A stretch of DNA of 39,783 nucleotides from contig JACOTA010000006.1 in assembly GCA_016178585.1 (NCBI GenBank), positions 1-39,783 on the forward strand. Reading direction: 5' to 3'. Made by a program: the position numbers and the translations under genes. Positions 5,802-28,269 of the stretch are shown here, piece by piece (within the stretch, counting starts at the first letter, position 1; every line of letters begins with the position of its first letter). This stretch comes from Nitrospirota bacterium (GTDB taxonomy: Bacteria > Nitrospirota > Nitrospiria > JACQBW01). The notes below the pieces were generated by a model. It was given only the letters and a program-made list of their open reading frames with translations. It searched no databases and had not been told where the DNA came from.

Positions 5802-5969
5802 TTTTTCAATAAACTCCTTCCTCTTGTTTCCCCTTTGAAATTGAAAGAAAGATTATCCCACTCCATTTACTTTTTCAAGAAGAAACGCTCCCTTGCCCAC
5901 CCCGGTTTTTTAAAATATCCGTTTTTTCAGGCCAGGGGCTGCGTCGTTTAATCGGGTGACCGGGATTTC

Positions 5970-22406: not shown

Positions 22407-23069
22407 TTAAACTTTTGGGAGGTCTTTCAGGCAGAGATAAAAATCCTGATAGAGATAATCTTTTCCTTTATGGCTTTCCCGTTCTTTAACCTCATCCACT
22501 TTTTTGGGCGGCGGCACAACCACCTTGTTTCCCGGCGTCCAGTTCACCGGTGTCGCAACGGTAAACTTGTCAGCCGTTTGCAGCGAAGTGACCAATCGAA
22601 TGATCTCTTCGACGTTCCGTCCCACATTCATCGGATAGTAAACAAGGGCGCGGACAACCCGTTTGGGATCGATGATAAAAACCGCGCGAATGGTTGCCGT
22701 GGCGCTGGCTCCCGGATGGATCATTCCATAAGCCTGTGAAACCTTCATGTCGATATCGGCAATCATTGGAAAAGGGATTTCAACACCCATTTTCTCTTTC
22801 ATGTTTTGAAGCCAGGCCAAATGGGAATGAATGCTATCGACGCTGATACCGATTAATTTTGTTGAAATTTTCTTAAAATCTTCGCTTCGCCGTCCAAACT
22901 CCATAAGCTCGGTGCTGCAAACCGGGGTAAAGTCGGCCGGATGAGAAAAAAGGACGACCCACTCTTTTCCCTGCCACTCGCTAAAAGTCATCTCACCGGA
23001 ATGGGTGGTCACTGCCTTAAAATCCGGAGCGACATCTCCAATTTTAGGTAAACTTAATCCTTCTGCCAT
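22407..23069 (-). CDS. 1-Cys peroxiredoxin (Prx6 type)
   Basis: This 220-residue thiol peroxidase reduces H2O2 and organic or peroxynitrite peroxides. The peroxidatic cysteine is Cys51 in 'SHPADFTPVCSTEL', with the conserved Thr and Pro of PxxxT/SxxC. No resolving cysteine occurs at the position of typical 2-Cys enzymes. The long C-terminal arm ('VATPVNWTPGNKVVVPPPKK') is characteristic of the Prx6 subfamily, which includes archaeal Prx and yeast Prx1. A further Cys near the end ('YLCLKDLPKV') could take part in resolution, which is speculative. AAGGAG lies upstream of the ATG and a clear terminator follows. It is monocistronic and cytoplasmic. Confidence 0.93.
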   Translation of the reverse strand: MAEGLSLPKIGDVAPDFKAVTTHSGEMTFSEWQGKEWVVLFSHPADFTPVCSTELMEFGRRSEDFKKISTKLIGISVDSIHSHLAWLQNMKEKMGVEIPFPMIADIDMKVSQAYGMIHPGASATATIRAVFIIDPKRVVRALVYYPMNVGRNVEEIIRLVTSLQTADKFTVATPVNWTPGNKVVVPPPKKVDEVKERESHKGKDYLYQDFYLCLKDLPKV

Positions 23070-23128
23070 AGCTAATCTCCTTAAAGTTTATCGGTTTAGT
23101 AAGAAAATTATAATCACCCCATTTCCTC

Positions 23129-23266
23129 CCAAGACCAGCGATAGACTTCGCACCCACTTATTAATCATGTCATTGCGAGCACCGAAGGGTGCGTGGCAAT
23201 CTTATCGTAAAGTCTTGAGATTGCTTCACTTTGTTCGCAATGACAGCTTTCTAACTCTGTTCTTGG
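23129..23266 (+). repeat. 138-bp MITE-like element, left copy
   Basis: This copy is exactly identical, in reverse complement, to 24366-24503. Ends are imperfect terminal inverted repeats (CCAAGAcCAG ... and, reversed, CCAAGAaCAG). The interior holds a cattgcga...gcaatct / agattgc...tcgcaatg inverted pair of the kind widely dispersed in bacterial genomes. It is non-coding and probably moved in trans by a transposase. Confidence 0.9.
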
Positions 23267-23344
23267 TACTTTTTCTTTATGATGAAATTAAGCTTAAGAA
23301 GCTCCGACGTATTTGTATTTATTTGAACCTAACGGGAGGAAATA

Positions 23345-24091
23345 ATGCTGAATATAATAAAAGTATTAGTAAAAAGCTCCTTTAGAGTGGGAATGTTTCT
23401 GGTCCTATTCTTTTATTTTGCTCCAAAAACGCCTCTTTTAGCCTATGACGTGATTCCTGTTAAACGGGGAGGAGAACTTTTCGGGTCCATCAAATTTATG
23501 GGGGAACCCCCTCCCAATCGATCCCATCAGGTGTTGAATAACCCGGAATTTTGCGGATCGGCGGTTCTAGAAGAGACCACCCTTGTCAATCCCGAAAATC
23601 ATGGCCTGAAAAATGTTGTGATCAGCATTGAGAAAATCGAGCGGGGCAAAAAACCACTTTTATCCTCTCTGGTATTGGAAAATCGTCATTGCCATTTTGT
23701 GCCGCACGTTCAGATGGGAATGGTGGGGAGTTCATATGAAATCAGGAATTCAGATCCGGTGCTCCATAATACCCATCTCTATACCGAATCGGTAACCCTT
23801 GTCAATGTCGCTATGCCCGCCAGCGGGAACAATATCAGAAAAACGATTGTAAAAAAAGGAATCATCAATGCCAAATGTGATGCTCACAAGTTCATGCAAG
23901 GGTGGATATTTGTTTCGGATAACCCATACGGTGCGGTTACTGATCAAGATGGAAATTACAGAATTTCTGACATTCCCCCCGGCAAATATAAAATCGGGAT
24001 CTGGCATGAAAGCCTTCCGCTTCAGGAAAAAGAAGTGGTGATTTCTCCGGAAAAGGAAACCGAACTCTCAATAAAATTTCCCGTGCGCTAA
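23345..24091 (+). CDS. Cupredoxin-like exported protein with carboxypeptidase-regulatory tail
   Basis: This 248-residue exported protein begins with a basic start and a long hydrophobic segment (VGMFLVLFFYF) and is probably cleaved near LLA-YD. The middle resembles a cupredoxin-like domain: 'HNTHLY' (His141, His144) and 'CDAHKFMQGW' (Cys178, His181, Met184) are placed like type-1 copper ligands, although C-x2-H-x2-M is tighter than in plastocyanin. The tail 'AVTDQDGNYRISDIPPGKYK' is a carboxypeptidase-regulatory or peptidase-associated beta-sandwich turn. Such proteins are common in nitrifiers and metal-respiring bacteria, with undefined function. The ATG has GGGAGG 5 nt upstream. The gene is enclosed by identical inverted 138-bp elements. 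Copper binding is inference. Confidence 0.75.
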   Translation: MLNIIKVLVKSSFRVGMFLVLFFYFAPKTPLLAYDVIPVKRGGELFGSIKFMGEPPPNRSHQVLNNPEFCGSAVLEETTLVNPENHGLKNVVISIEKIERGKKPLLSSLVLENRHCHFVPHVQMGMVGSSYEIRNSDPVLHNTHLYTESVTLVNVAMPASGNNIRKTIVKKGIINAKCDAHKFMQGWIFVSDNPYGAVTDQDGNYRISDIPPGKYKIGIWHESLPLQEKEVVISPEKETELSIKFPVR

Positions 24092-25974: not shown

Positions 25975-25988
25975 TAGGGGGTTTCTGA

Positions 25989-26284
25989 GCTTTGCCTGCT
26001 CCCGGTATAAGTTTCAGATGCCGTTTATCAAGACCACGGCAGGGGCATTCCGTCATGAGTCAAAGCGTCGACCATGATTTTCTCCTGTGACGTATTTGCT
26101 TCGGCCTGAAGCGCTCACGAAGCGCGCTTCAGGCAGGTGGTTTATCTTTTGAGGGGTTGGATTCAAAATTTATATGTCCGCTGCGGAACCGCTCCCAAAG
26201 CAAGCTCGGAGGCACCTACCCATTCCTCCATCCCCCTGCCGTGGTCCTGGCTCCGGTTGTCTCTAAAAACCGTGGGTGGACAAG
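25989..26284 (-). repeat. Nested-hairpin element, copy 1
   Basis: This ~296-bp non-coding element lies between ugd and the epimerase gene. A perfect 14-bp arm (gaccacggcagggg, 26032-26045) pairs with 26233-26246. Centred inside is an 11-bp hairpin (gcctgaagcgc, 26104-26114, with 26124-26134). Its reverse complement aligns along most of its length with 27956-28203. Confidence 0.75.
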
Positions 26285-26345
26285 GGTTTCTGAGAGGCGC
26301 GGAATCCAGGTGAATCTAAACGGTTAAAAAAAGGGGACGCAAAGG

Positions 26346-27293
26346 TTGGAAAAAATATTGGTGACGGGGGCGGCGGGTTTTATTGGTTCTCATTTGACCG
26401 GCCGTCTTTTATCACTCGGATACAGGGTTTACGGACTCGACAACTTTGACTCCTTTTATGACCCGGCCTTAAAACAAAAGAACGTCGACCTGTTTAAAGA
26501 CCACCCTCTTTTTTCCCTTTTTGTCGGGGATATTCGGGACACTCCTTTTTTAGAAAGAATTTTTGCCCGGCAGTCGTTTGACAAAATCGTCCATCTGGCG
26601 GCTCGCGCCGGCGTTCGCCCCTCCATTCAAAACCCCTTGCTTTACGAAGAGGTGAATATTAAAGGGACGCTCAACCTCCTGGAGCTTTCGCGGATTCATT
26701 CCATTAAGCAATTTGTGTTCGCCTCTTCCTCCTCCGTTTACGGCGGGAATATTAAAACCCCTTTTTCTGAAGCCGATCCGGTCGATTCACCCGGCTCGCC
26801 CTATGCGGCAACTAAAAAAGCCGGGGAGCTCTTTTGCTATAACTACCACCATCTTTATCAAATTCCAATGACTTGTTTACGGTTTTTTACGGTGTATGGC
26901 CCGAGACAACGCCCGGAAATGGCCATCCATCTTTTTGCGCGAGCGATCTTTGAAGGAAAGTCCCTCCCTTTGTTCGGCGATGGAACCATCAGGCGGGATT
27001 TTACCTACATCGACGACATTATCGACGGGATCGTCCAGGCGATAAAAAATCCTTTCGAGTTTGAGATTTTTAATCTGGGAGAGTCGGAAACCCATCCGAT
27101 GAATAAAGTTATCGAATTACTGTCAAAATATATTGGAAAACCAGCCAGGATAAATTACCTTCCCGTTGCGCCGGGGGATATGTTAATCACCTATGCCGAT
27201 ATTTCGAAAGCGCGAAAGAAATTAGGGTATGATCCTAAAACCCCCCTTGAACAAGGCGTTTTTAAATTTGTGGAGAACCTGAAAAAACAGTAA
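26346..27293 (+). CDS. NAD-dependent sugar-nucleotide epimerase, UDP-glucuronate 4-epimerase-like
   Basis: This 315-residue extended short-chain dehydrogenase has the NAD motif 'GAAGFIGSHL' (8-17), the substrate and cofactor region 'LDNFDSFYDPALKQKN', the serine cluster 'SSSSVYGG', and the catalytic Tyr153 and Lys157 in 'YAATKKAGE'. The 'NFDSFYDPALK' region resembles UDP-glucuronate 4-epimerases (GlcA to GalA). The neighbour ugd makes that substrate, which supports this specificity over GalE. The start is TTG at 26346, with AGGGGAC a few bases upstream; no in-frame ATG precedes the NAD motif. Substrate choice is inference. Confidence 0.85.
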   Translation: MEKILVTGAAGFIGSHLTGRLLSLGYRVYGLDNFDSFYDPALKQKNVDLFKDHPLFSLFVGDIRDTPFLERIFARQSFDKIVHLAARAGVRPSIQNPLLYEEVNIKGTLNLLELSRIHSIKQFVFASSSSVYGGNIKTPFSEADPVDSPGSPYAATKKAGELFCYNYHHLYQIPMTCLRFFTVYGPRQRPEMAIHLFARAIFEGKSLPLFGDGTIRRDFTYIDDIIDGIVQAIKNPFEFEIFNLGESETHPMNKVIELLSKYIGKPARINYLPVAPGDMLITYADISKARKKLGYDPKTPLEQGVFKFVENLKKQ

Positions 27294-27432
27294 TCCAGCC
27301 TTAAACCCGGTCCGGTCTTTTACTTTTAGGATTGATCTTGTTGTTTAACTTCGCTATTCTTTGTCCCGATCTCTTGAGAAAAGTTTCTTTTTCGTTTTTG
27401 GCGCGGTTTTGTACAAAAGAGAGGAAAAATAA

Positions 27433-27810
27433 ATGGCCCAAAAAGTTCTTCTTATTGACGACAGTGATTTTGTGCGAACGATGTTTTTAACCGTTTTGAT
27501 GACCGGGGGGTTTCAGGTTTCAGCCGCAAAAGATGGAAACGAAGGAATCGCGGCCATTACTAAAGAAAAACCTGATTTAATTTTGCTTGATTTAATGATG
27601 CCGGTTATGGATGGGTTTAAAGTTCTTTCTTTTTTAAGAGGCGATCCGAAAACGGCTGACATTCCCGTGATCGTCCTGTCGGCCAAAGGAAACCCGGAAG
27701 AAATTCAAAAAGCAATGTCGTTGGGAGCAAAAGATTTTTTAATTAAGTCCACCACTCCTCCTAAAAAAGTTTTAGAGAAAGTTAAATTTCACCTCTCCTC
27801 GCCCAAATAA
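27433..27810 (+). CDS. Single-domain response regulator (CheY-like)
   Basis: This 125-residue receiver domain has no output domain. The acidic pair is in 'LLIDDSD' (Asp9, Asp10), the phospho-acceptor is Asp53 in 'LILLDLMMPVMDGFK', the Ser switch is in 'VIVLSAKG', and the conserved Lys is in 'KDFLIKSTTPP'. Such stand-alone regulators act by protein contact, for example on motors, kinases or secretion systems. No histidine kinase is nearby. GAGG precedes the ATG. A perfect parS site lies 39 bp after its stop. The family call is firm; the partner is unknown. Confidence 0.92.
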   Translation: MAQKVLLIDDSDFVRTMFLTVLMTGGFQVSAAKDGNEGIAAITKEKPDLILLDLMMPVMDGFKVLSFLRGDPKTADIPVIVLSAKGNPEEIQKAMSLGAKDFLIKSTTPPKKVLEKVKFHLSSPK

Positions 27811-27848
27811 CTATGTAAATATTTGATTTTATTATATTTTAAAATTAA

Positions 27849-27864
27849 TGTTCCACGTGGAACA
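27849..27864. promoter_or_regulatory. parS centromere site 1
   Basis: TGTTCCACGTGGAACA is a perfect 16-bp palindrome matching the near-universal chromosomal parS consensus bound by ParB. It lies 1.4 kb from parA, directly after the response regulator gene. Confidence 0.93.
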
Positions 27865-27955
27865 TTTTTAGTTTTGCTTCAGTTTTTGGTGTCAGATGGG
27901 CATTGGAATGTCTCTCTCCAATGCCATCGAACCTTGTCCGAATCTCTGTATTTTT

Positions 27956-28203
27956 CTTGCCCCTCCCCAGTTTTATCCAAAAGAACCGGGACCAAGGCCA
28001 GGGGAGGGGGTTGGAGGAATGGGTCGTACGCCAAAACAACCCTTTAAGAGACAAACCACCTGCCTGAAGCGCGTTTCATGAGCGCTTCAGGCCATTGCAA
28101 TGACGACAGAGGAGACAATAACGGGAGACGTTTTGACCCGTGACGGAAACTCCCTCCCCTGGCCTGAAAAAACGACTATTTTAAAAAACTGGGGGTGGGC
28201 AAG
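27956..28203 (+). repeat. Nested-hairpin element, copy 2
   Basis: This 248-bp non-coding element has terminal inverted repeats cttgcccctccccagtttt (from 27956) and aaaactgggggtgggcaag (to 28203). A perfect 13-bp inner arm is ggccaggggaggg (27996-28008) with 28152-28164. A central 11-bp hairpin is gcctgaagcgc (28062-28072) with 28082-28092. It is a diverged, inverted copy of 25989-26284. Confidence 0.8.
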
Positions 28204-28269
28204 CTAGATTTTTATATTATGGTAGGGTTAATCATTTTTGCGGTCCAAAACTGAAATAAAGCCGTTTTT

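Follow-up and report, generated by a model that had tools for sequence, protein, structure and literature searches.

Two inverted foldback MITEs in a Nitrospirota genome and a candidate DUF6788/IS4-type driver with the same 19-bp ends in other genomes

Correia elements and RUP use TA, and the target duplications of QMITE2 are 7-9 bp long. The IS4 family, with its subgroups IS10, IS231, ISH8, IS4Sa and IS4, comprises elements described as single-ORF that make duplications of about 10 bp and whose transposase carries a YREK motif (PMC2266710). The hupL MITE of Candidatus Thiomargarita nelsonii is flanked by 10-bp direct repeats, has 19-bp inverted repeats and is present in many copies, and its authors found no parent IS family for it (PMC4853749). 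The window considered here, the whole stretch of 39,783 nucleotides analysed (positions 1 to 39,783 of contig JACOTA010000006.1, assembly GCA_016178585.1, from a Nitrospirota bacterium), holds two elements of this already known kind in mutually inverted orientation, 78% alike over the main 138-nt arm (Table 1). An initial annotation had described two inverted, diverged hairpin copies, and it needs small corrections, at the limits, where 25989 becomes 25990, and in what follows. Its perfect 14-bp arm in copy 1 and its central hairpin common to both copies are present as described; the arm of copy 2 is likewise perfect, at 14 rather than 13 bp, and the cttgccc-type ends reported for copy 2 also occur in copy 1 (CTTTGCC... 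/ ...GGACAAG), where they had been missed together with the flanking duplication of copy 1, a left-end fragment elsewhere in the window and the further copies in the genome. Among the ORFs of the window, none of 100 aa or more overlaps either copy.

Table 1. Coordinates in the window of the two MITEs, their parts and a third family member
Feature	Position	Strand	Remark
Copy 1, 295-bp MITE	25990..26284	+	own variant lineage, common to C29 copy (92% alike over 92 bases)
Copy 2, 248-bp MITE	27956..28203	-	main subfamily; C18 and C13 copies 93% alike
Left 10-bp target-site duplication, copy 1, GGTTTCTGAG	25980..25989	.	identical to 26285-26294
Right 10-bp target-site duplication, copy 1, GGTTTCTGAG	26285..26294	.	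identical to 25980-25989
Degenerate left TIR, copy 1, CTTTGCCTGCTCCCGGTATA	25990..26009	+	from alignment; start fixed by exact duplication
Right TIR, copy 1, CTTGTCCACCCACGGTTTT on - strand	26266..26284	-	3 mismatches
Inner stem left arm, copy 1, GACCACGGCAGGGG	26032..26045	+	perfect complement of 26233-26246
Inner stem right arm, copy 1, CCCCTGCCGTGGTC	26233..26246	+	14-bp perfect pairing with 26032-26045
Central hairpin, copy 1, GCCTGAAGCGC	26104..26134	+	also in copy 2
45-bp piece of unrelated genome repeat, ATATGTCCGCTGCGGAACCGCTCCCAAAGCAAGCTCGGAGGCACC	26172..26216	+	replaces part of copy 1
Decayed target-site duplication, copy 2, CTGTATTTTT	27946..27955	.	8/10 with 28204-28213
Decayed target-site duplication, copy 2, CTAGATTTTT	28204..28213	.	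8/10 with 27946-27955
TIR, copy 2	27956..27974	+	2 mismatches
TIR, copy 2, exact CTTGCCCACCCCCAGTTTT	28185..28203	-	no mismatch to consensus
Inner stem arm, copy 2, AGGCCAGGGGAGGG	27995..28008	+	perfect complement of 28152-28165
Inner stem arm, copy 2, CCCTCCCCTGGCCT	28152..28165	+	14-bp perfect pairing with 27995-28008
Central hairpin, copy 2, GCCTGAAGCGC	28062..28092	-	also in copy 1
Third family member, left-end fragment (TIR and start of inner stem)	5892..5938	+	92% to copy 2 positions 8-55; TIR match

The two copies belong to an interspersed family. The initial annotation had proposed a search for further copies and for terminal duplications, and both were found: full or broken copies lie at about 15 places in the assembly (2.45 Mb, 82 contigs, 96% complete), and copy 1 is flanked by an exact 10-bp duplication. 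DNA search with copies 1 and 2 recovered almost complete copies from contigs C18 and C13; those from C17, C53, C43 and C29 are diverged, that from C35 has an internal deletion, and C30, C73, C25, C5 and C11, like the window itself, hold end fragments. A second subfamily, with identical ends and a collinear, strongly diverged interior, is present at C53:2646-2884 and on C43 and C32. Copies with both ends span 156-295 bp, and several of them carry at both ends the 19-bp terminal inverted repeat (TIR) of consensus CTTGCCCACCCCCAGTTTT, which is found with up to three mismatches at 15 places in the genome against one for a reversed-pattern control. Besides copy 1, exact 10-bp duplications flank the C35 copy (ACACAAACGG) and the C53B copy (GTTGTTTTTT), the latter read from the sequence, as the automatic flank count set that end one base late; the flanks of copy 2 agree at 8/10 positions and those of C18 at 7/10, as expected of older insertions. 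Among 39 elements sharing these ends, in this and other genomes, flanks are at least 8/10 alike in 24 and identical in seven, whereas permuting the flank pairing 2000 times gives a mean of 0.63 and a maximum of 4 for the former count, which argues for transposition with a 10-bp staggered cut. With 19-bp inverted ends, 10-bp target duplications, full, internally deleted and truncated copies and no gene, these elements are MITEs, and the family is now mostly decaying in this genome. Other repeats lie among them. The one that replaces part of copy 1 recurs about 27 times elsewhere in the genome, in several cases preceded by 'aggggcccgtgcggagaaatgattaaaacc'. Another, 'GTCATTGCGAGC...GAAGCAATCTC' with AGAACAGAGATAGAAAG-type ends, is inserted into or beside several MITE copies (C30, C29, C67) and occurs also at L034, L033 and L111; a predicted 126-aa ORF at 23005-23385 of the window appears to be partly this repeat. 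On contig C27 of the same genome (L055, 6088-6106 region) a solo MITE end is placed immediately upstream of a stretch that, judged by eye, resembles a leader of the cobalamin-riboswitch type.

No DNA match to the family was found in any of 39 relatives searched, a DNA search of plasmids with copy 2 gave no match, and the TIR was not found in viral contigs. Among 296 genomes sampled from the phylum, the TIR gives, besides the source genome, 1-3 scattered matches in each of 17 genomes; as this is near background, the family arrived sporadically and not by descent within the phylum. A scan of one genome per species in 84,980 species, by contrast, returned 41 stretches with the exact end, from deltaproteobacterial bins, Acidobacteria, Nitrospinota, Tectomicrobia, a Troglogloeales genome and others. 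In several end pairs of these genomes the two ends are separated by 48-452 bp and flanked by near-perfect duplications of 10 bp, the TIR stands at both ends of 30 or more elements outside the source genome, and its counts exceed those of the reversed-pattern control in four other genomes (70 v 1, 45 v 2, 46 v 3 and 26 v 2). The MITE families of different genomes have only their ends in common, their interiors being unrelated in sequence. The ends CTTGCCCACCTTCACTTTT and CTTGCCACCCCCCAGTTTA, variants met repeatedly in a Thermodesulfobacteriota genome and in the JAPLIW genome (L155-L158, G043), suggest sister groups of the same IS/MITE family. In the acidobacterial JABCYZ (L068, L072, L073, L096), 4/4 ends run into a contig end at 127 or 197 bases, which is what an intact element in many copies would cause by breaking the assembly, and 2/4 open with a DUF6788 leader.

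The same ends also belong to a putatively autonomous element in other genomes (L152, L098 and L088), and it is by these shared ends in other organisms, no resident transposase having been found, that a driver can be assigned. L152, from an Acidobacteria-phylum genome (G566), is a complete element of 1796 bp (1-1796) in which an end is followed by DUF6788, an IS4-type transposase and a second end, with the TIR at both ends and domain matches to DUF6788 (8e-07) and DDE_Tnp_1 (2e-08). L153 is a second, more distant element with CTTGCCCTCTCCC ends, and at L098 the same TIR stands at one end, followed by DUF6788 and then by the transposase. The latter protein (P0001) has D114-D180-E286, that is D(65)D(105)E, and, as its full YREK motif, YRERMHIEHSFRDFK (YRERMQVEHTFRDFK in L152); it matches DDE_Tnp_1 at 1.2e-10 and, as the best NCBIfam model, transpos_IS4_2 at 6e-37, where its 127.5 bits against a cut-off of 152 make it IS4-like yet outside the curated groups. 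A DDE_Tnp_1 transposase with Y(2)R(3)E(6)K and D(60-110)D(100-150)E, as the IS4 family has it, is thus present; the single ORF of that family is not, as in L098, L152, L153 and L088 the TIR is separated from the transposase gene by a DUF6788 ORF. A whole or broken DUF6788 frame follows the end at L065, L072, L073, L083, L088 and L098 (the frames of L072, L073 and L083, like the ORF of L153, were judged by eye from the letters). The 10-bp duplication was measured on MITEs with these ends and is not clean on the few drivers seen, which lie at contig ends; since IS4 members make duplications of about 10 bp, its length in the MITEs independently fits a driver of this type. The DUF6788 and IS4-type DDE element is the likely driver of the MITEs. 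In the source assembly, a profile search found no PF01609 (DDE_Tnp_1) transposase gene, none of the 296 genomes of the phylum holds a relative of the transposase at E <= 1e-10, and a sequence search of the PDB with it gave no entry. The only DUF6788 match of the source genome is a stub that runs off the end of contig C7 (L170, G000 C7:1-145). This stub was considered as the resident driver and rejected, as no TIR lies beside it, and another DUF6788-bearing element probably sits at that assembly break. Apart from the 19-20 bp ends, MITEs and driver show no convincing similarity, and the lack of shared interiors gives no support to descent of the MITEs by simple internal deletion.

The interiors of the MITEs keep their internal stems paired while the sequence drifts. 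Over eight copies of the source genome, 92.5% of cells are paired in two helices of 25 pairs, and 11 of the 25 pairs are changed on both sides, in 15 cells, with 0/500 shuffles for each of these counts and only 0-4 pairs in slid controls; over 13 copies, 14 pairs and 22 cells are so changed (0/500), and trees built from unpaired columns call for no fewer than 14 paired changes of independent origin. The covariation that the initial annotation had asked to be examined is above background. Weaker replicates come from a same-end family elsewhere (3 pairs, 5 cells; 0/500 for cells) and from a second other genome (3 pairs, 6 cells; 2/500). Against dinucleotide shuffles, copy 2 folds with z of -5.7 and -7.0 on its two strands, and copy 1 more weakly (z -2.3), perhaps in part because of the foreign piece that it carries. 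Across 38 elements the interior has a mean z of -4.25, compared with -0.53 for neighbouring DNA, at a p of 8e-12 that overstates independence because the elements of one family are related.

Several readings of this pairing and mobility have to be weighed. That the copies are two chance-decayed palindromes of no common mobile origin would agree with the folding of copy 1, only moderately better than that of its shuffles, and is refuted to the point of negligible probability by about 15 homologous places, exact target duplications and covariation that no shuffle reproduces. The MITEs could instead belong to another transposase family with long target duplications (e.g. IS256, ISL3 or a Mutator-like family), their ends having been captured by the DUF6788/IS4-type element. 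The absence of a DDE_Tnp_1 transposase gene from the source assembly leaves some room for this proposal; however, the TIR lies upstream of DUF6788 at five or more independent loci (L065, L088, L098, L152, L153), with an IS4-type gene downstream in four, and a duplication of about 10 bp is characteristic of the IS4 family (PMC2266710), so that this reading is very unlikely. The initial annotation had left the choice between a structured RNA and a hairpin-dependent mobile DNA, and of these it is mobile DNA that stands. Functional structured RNAs, whether regulatory elements or sRNAs scattered in the genome and kept paired by selection on the RNA, would account for compensatory changes in two helices and for a very low folding energy, and it is known that MITE transcripts fold and can turn into sRNAs (PMC10969869, PMC5896051). 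However, transposition is evident from the TIRs and the flanking 10-bp duplications, interiors are entirely different from one genome to the next, and broken pairs on the modelled strand do not show the tolerance of G-U expected of RNA, A-C being the commoner there (10 v 4 for G-U; 17 v 8); a weak G-U lean towards the opposite strand falls short of significance, and the JAPLIW family, for which RNAalifold chose a G-U-rich fold, was left out of the strand test. As there is also no Rfam match, at gathering thresholds or at E<=1, a functional RNA is not supported and must be considered highly improbable.

For what maintains the stems, selection on the mobile lineage and template switching are the two alternatives. 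The initial annotation took divergence with preserved pairing to indicate selection; the stems do change in matched pairs, and template-switch repair is an alternative reading of such changes. The elements may thus be MITEs of the kind proposed here whose pairing arises from mutation bias alone, one arm being copied onto the other by template switching, without selection on structure. Template switching homogenises inverted-repeat arms and can yield multi-base compensatory changes (PMC8794818, PMC8604942), and it would agree with the many paired changes by which several lineages are set apart in one go, and with the direct GC-to-CG flips found in both arms. However, exchange of arms should also invert the loops, and 0/11 aligned central loops are inverted; in addition, the inner stem arms lie about 140-190 nt apart, which is long for a short-range switch. 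On this indirect evidence from a small sample, we regard mutation bias alone as possible, if somewhat doubtful. It seems unlikely at present that, in MITEs carried by the DUF6788/IS4-type group, selection demands a foldback interior of the non-autonomous state as such, for example because hairpins bring the two ends together or give shelter from transcription; were it so, covarying nested hairpins would be a convergent feature, reached in several phyla by interiors of unrelated sequence that lie behind one nearly invariant 19-bp end. The term "hairpin-dependent" is not supported: mobility is explained by the TIRs together with a DDE transposase of IS4 type, and pairing of the stems could persist through template-switch repair with no need of hairpins for movement.

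The available data thus allow the construction of a model that is very probably correct for both elements, namely that they are MITEs moved by a DUF6788/IS4-type transposase that binds the 19-bp ends, with the driver since lost or lying in a gap and the foldback maintained. The model proposes that the transposase, having bound the ends, would excise or copy the element and cut the new site with a 10-bp stagger. The driver may later have been lost from the genome, or may sit in an assembly gap, which would account for most copies now decaying. Meanwhile the interior foldback would be maintained in the transposing lineage, either by selection at the level of the element or by template switching between arms that repairs mismatches. 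A candidate driver is in this way assigned to a cross-phylum MITE group with 10-bp duplications and a nearly invariant 19-bp end, which may give a parent to orphan MITEs such as the hupL MITE of Thiomargarita, and for DUF6788 a concrete role can be examined, that of accessory protein to an IS4-type element. Functional RNA structure is what covariation is normally taken to prove; the paired stem changes in these mobile DNAs provide a natural data set within which selection and template-switch mutation can be compared.

The DUF6788/IS4-type driver group, the cross-phylum 19-bp end and the covarying nested hairpins in unrelated MITEs are apparently new as far as searched: in the literature searched, no paper names the 19-bp end string or DUF6788, though an IS that already has a name may carry these ends. 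The hupL MITE resembles the present elements in its 10-bp duplications, 19-bp ends and multiple copies, a comparison made by description that serves as a lead only. Correia/NEMIS, QMITE of Coxiella, RUP and BOX, also compared by description, are alike in being short and gene-free with inverted ends and a foldback interior (PMC10969869, PMC2229807, PMC5896051), and differ in their ends, duplications and drivers. REP/BIME are likewise multicopy extragenic hairpins; however, REPs are 20-40 bp long and lack target duplications, whereas the elements here span 48-496 bp and have 10-bp duplications. The transposase of the candidate driver has as its closest named relative on plasmids ISTth2, at about 30% identity. 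With the IS4 family it shares the complete Y(2)R(3)E(6)K, the D(65)D(105)E spacing and the duplication of about 10 bp, and it departs from that family in being part of a two-gene element, with the DUF6788 ORF in front, and in ends (CTTGCCCACCCCC) that fit no tabulated subgroup end exactly, IS10 having CT... but 9 bp.
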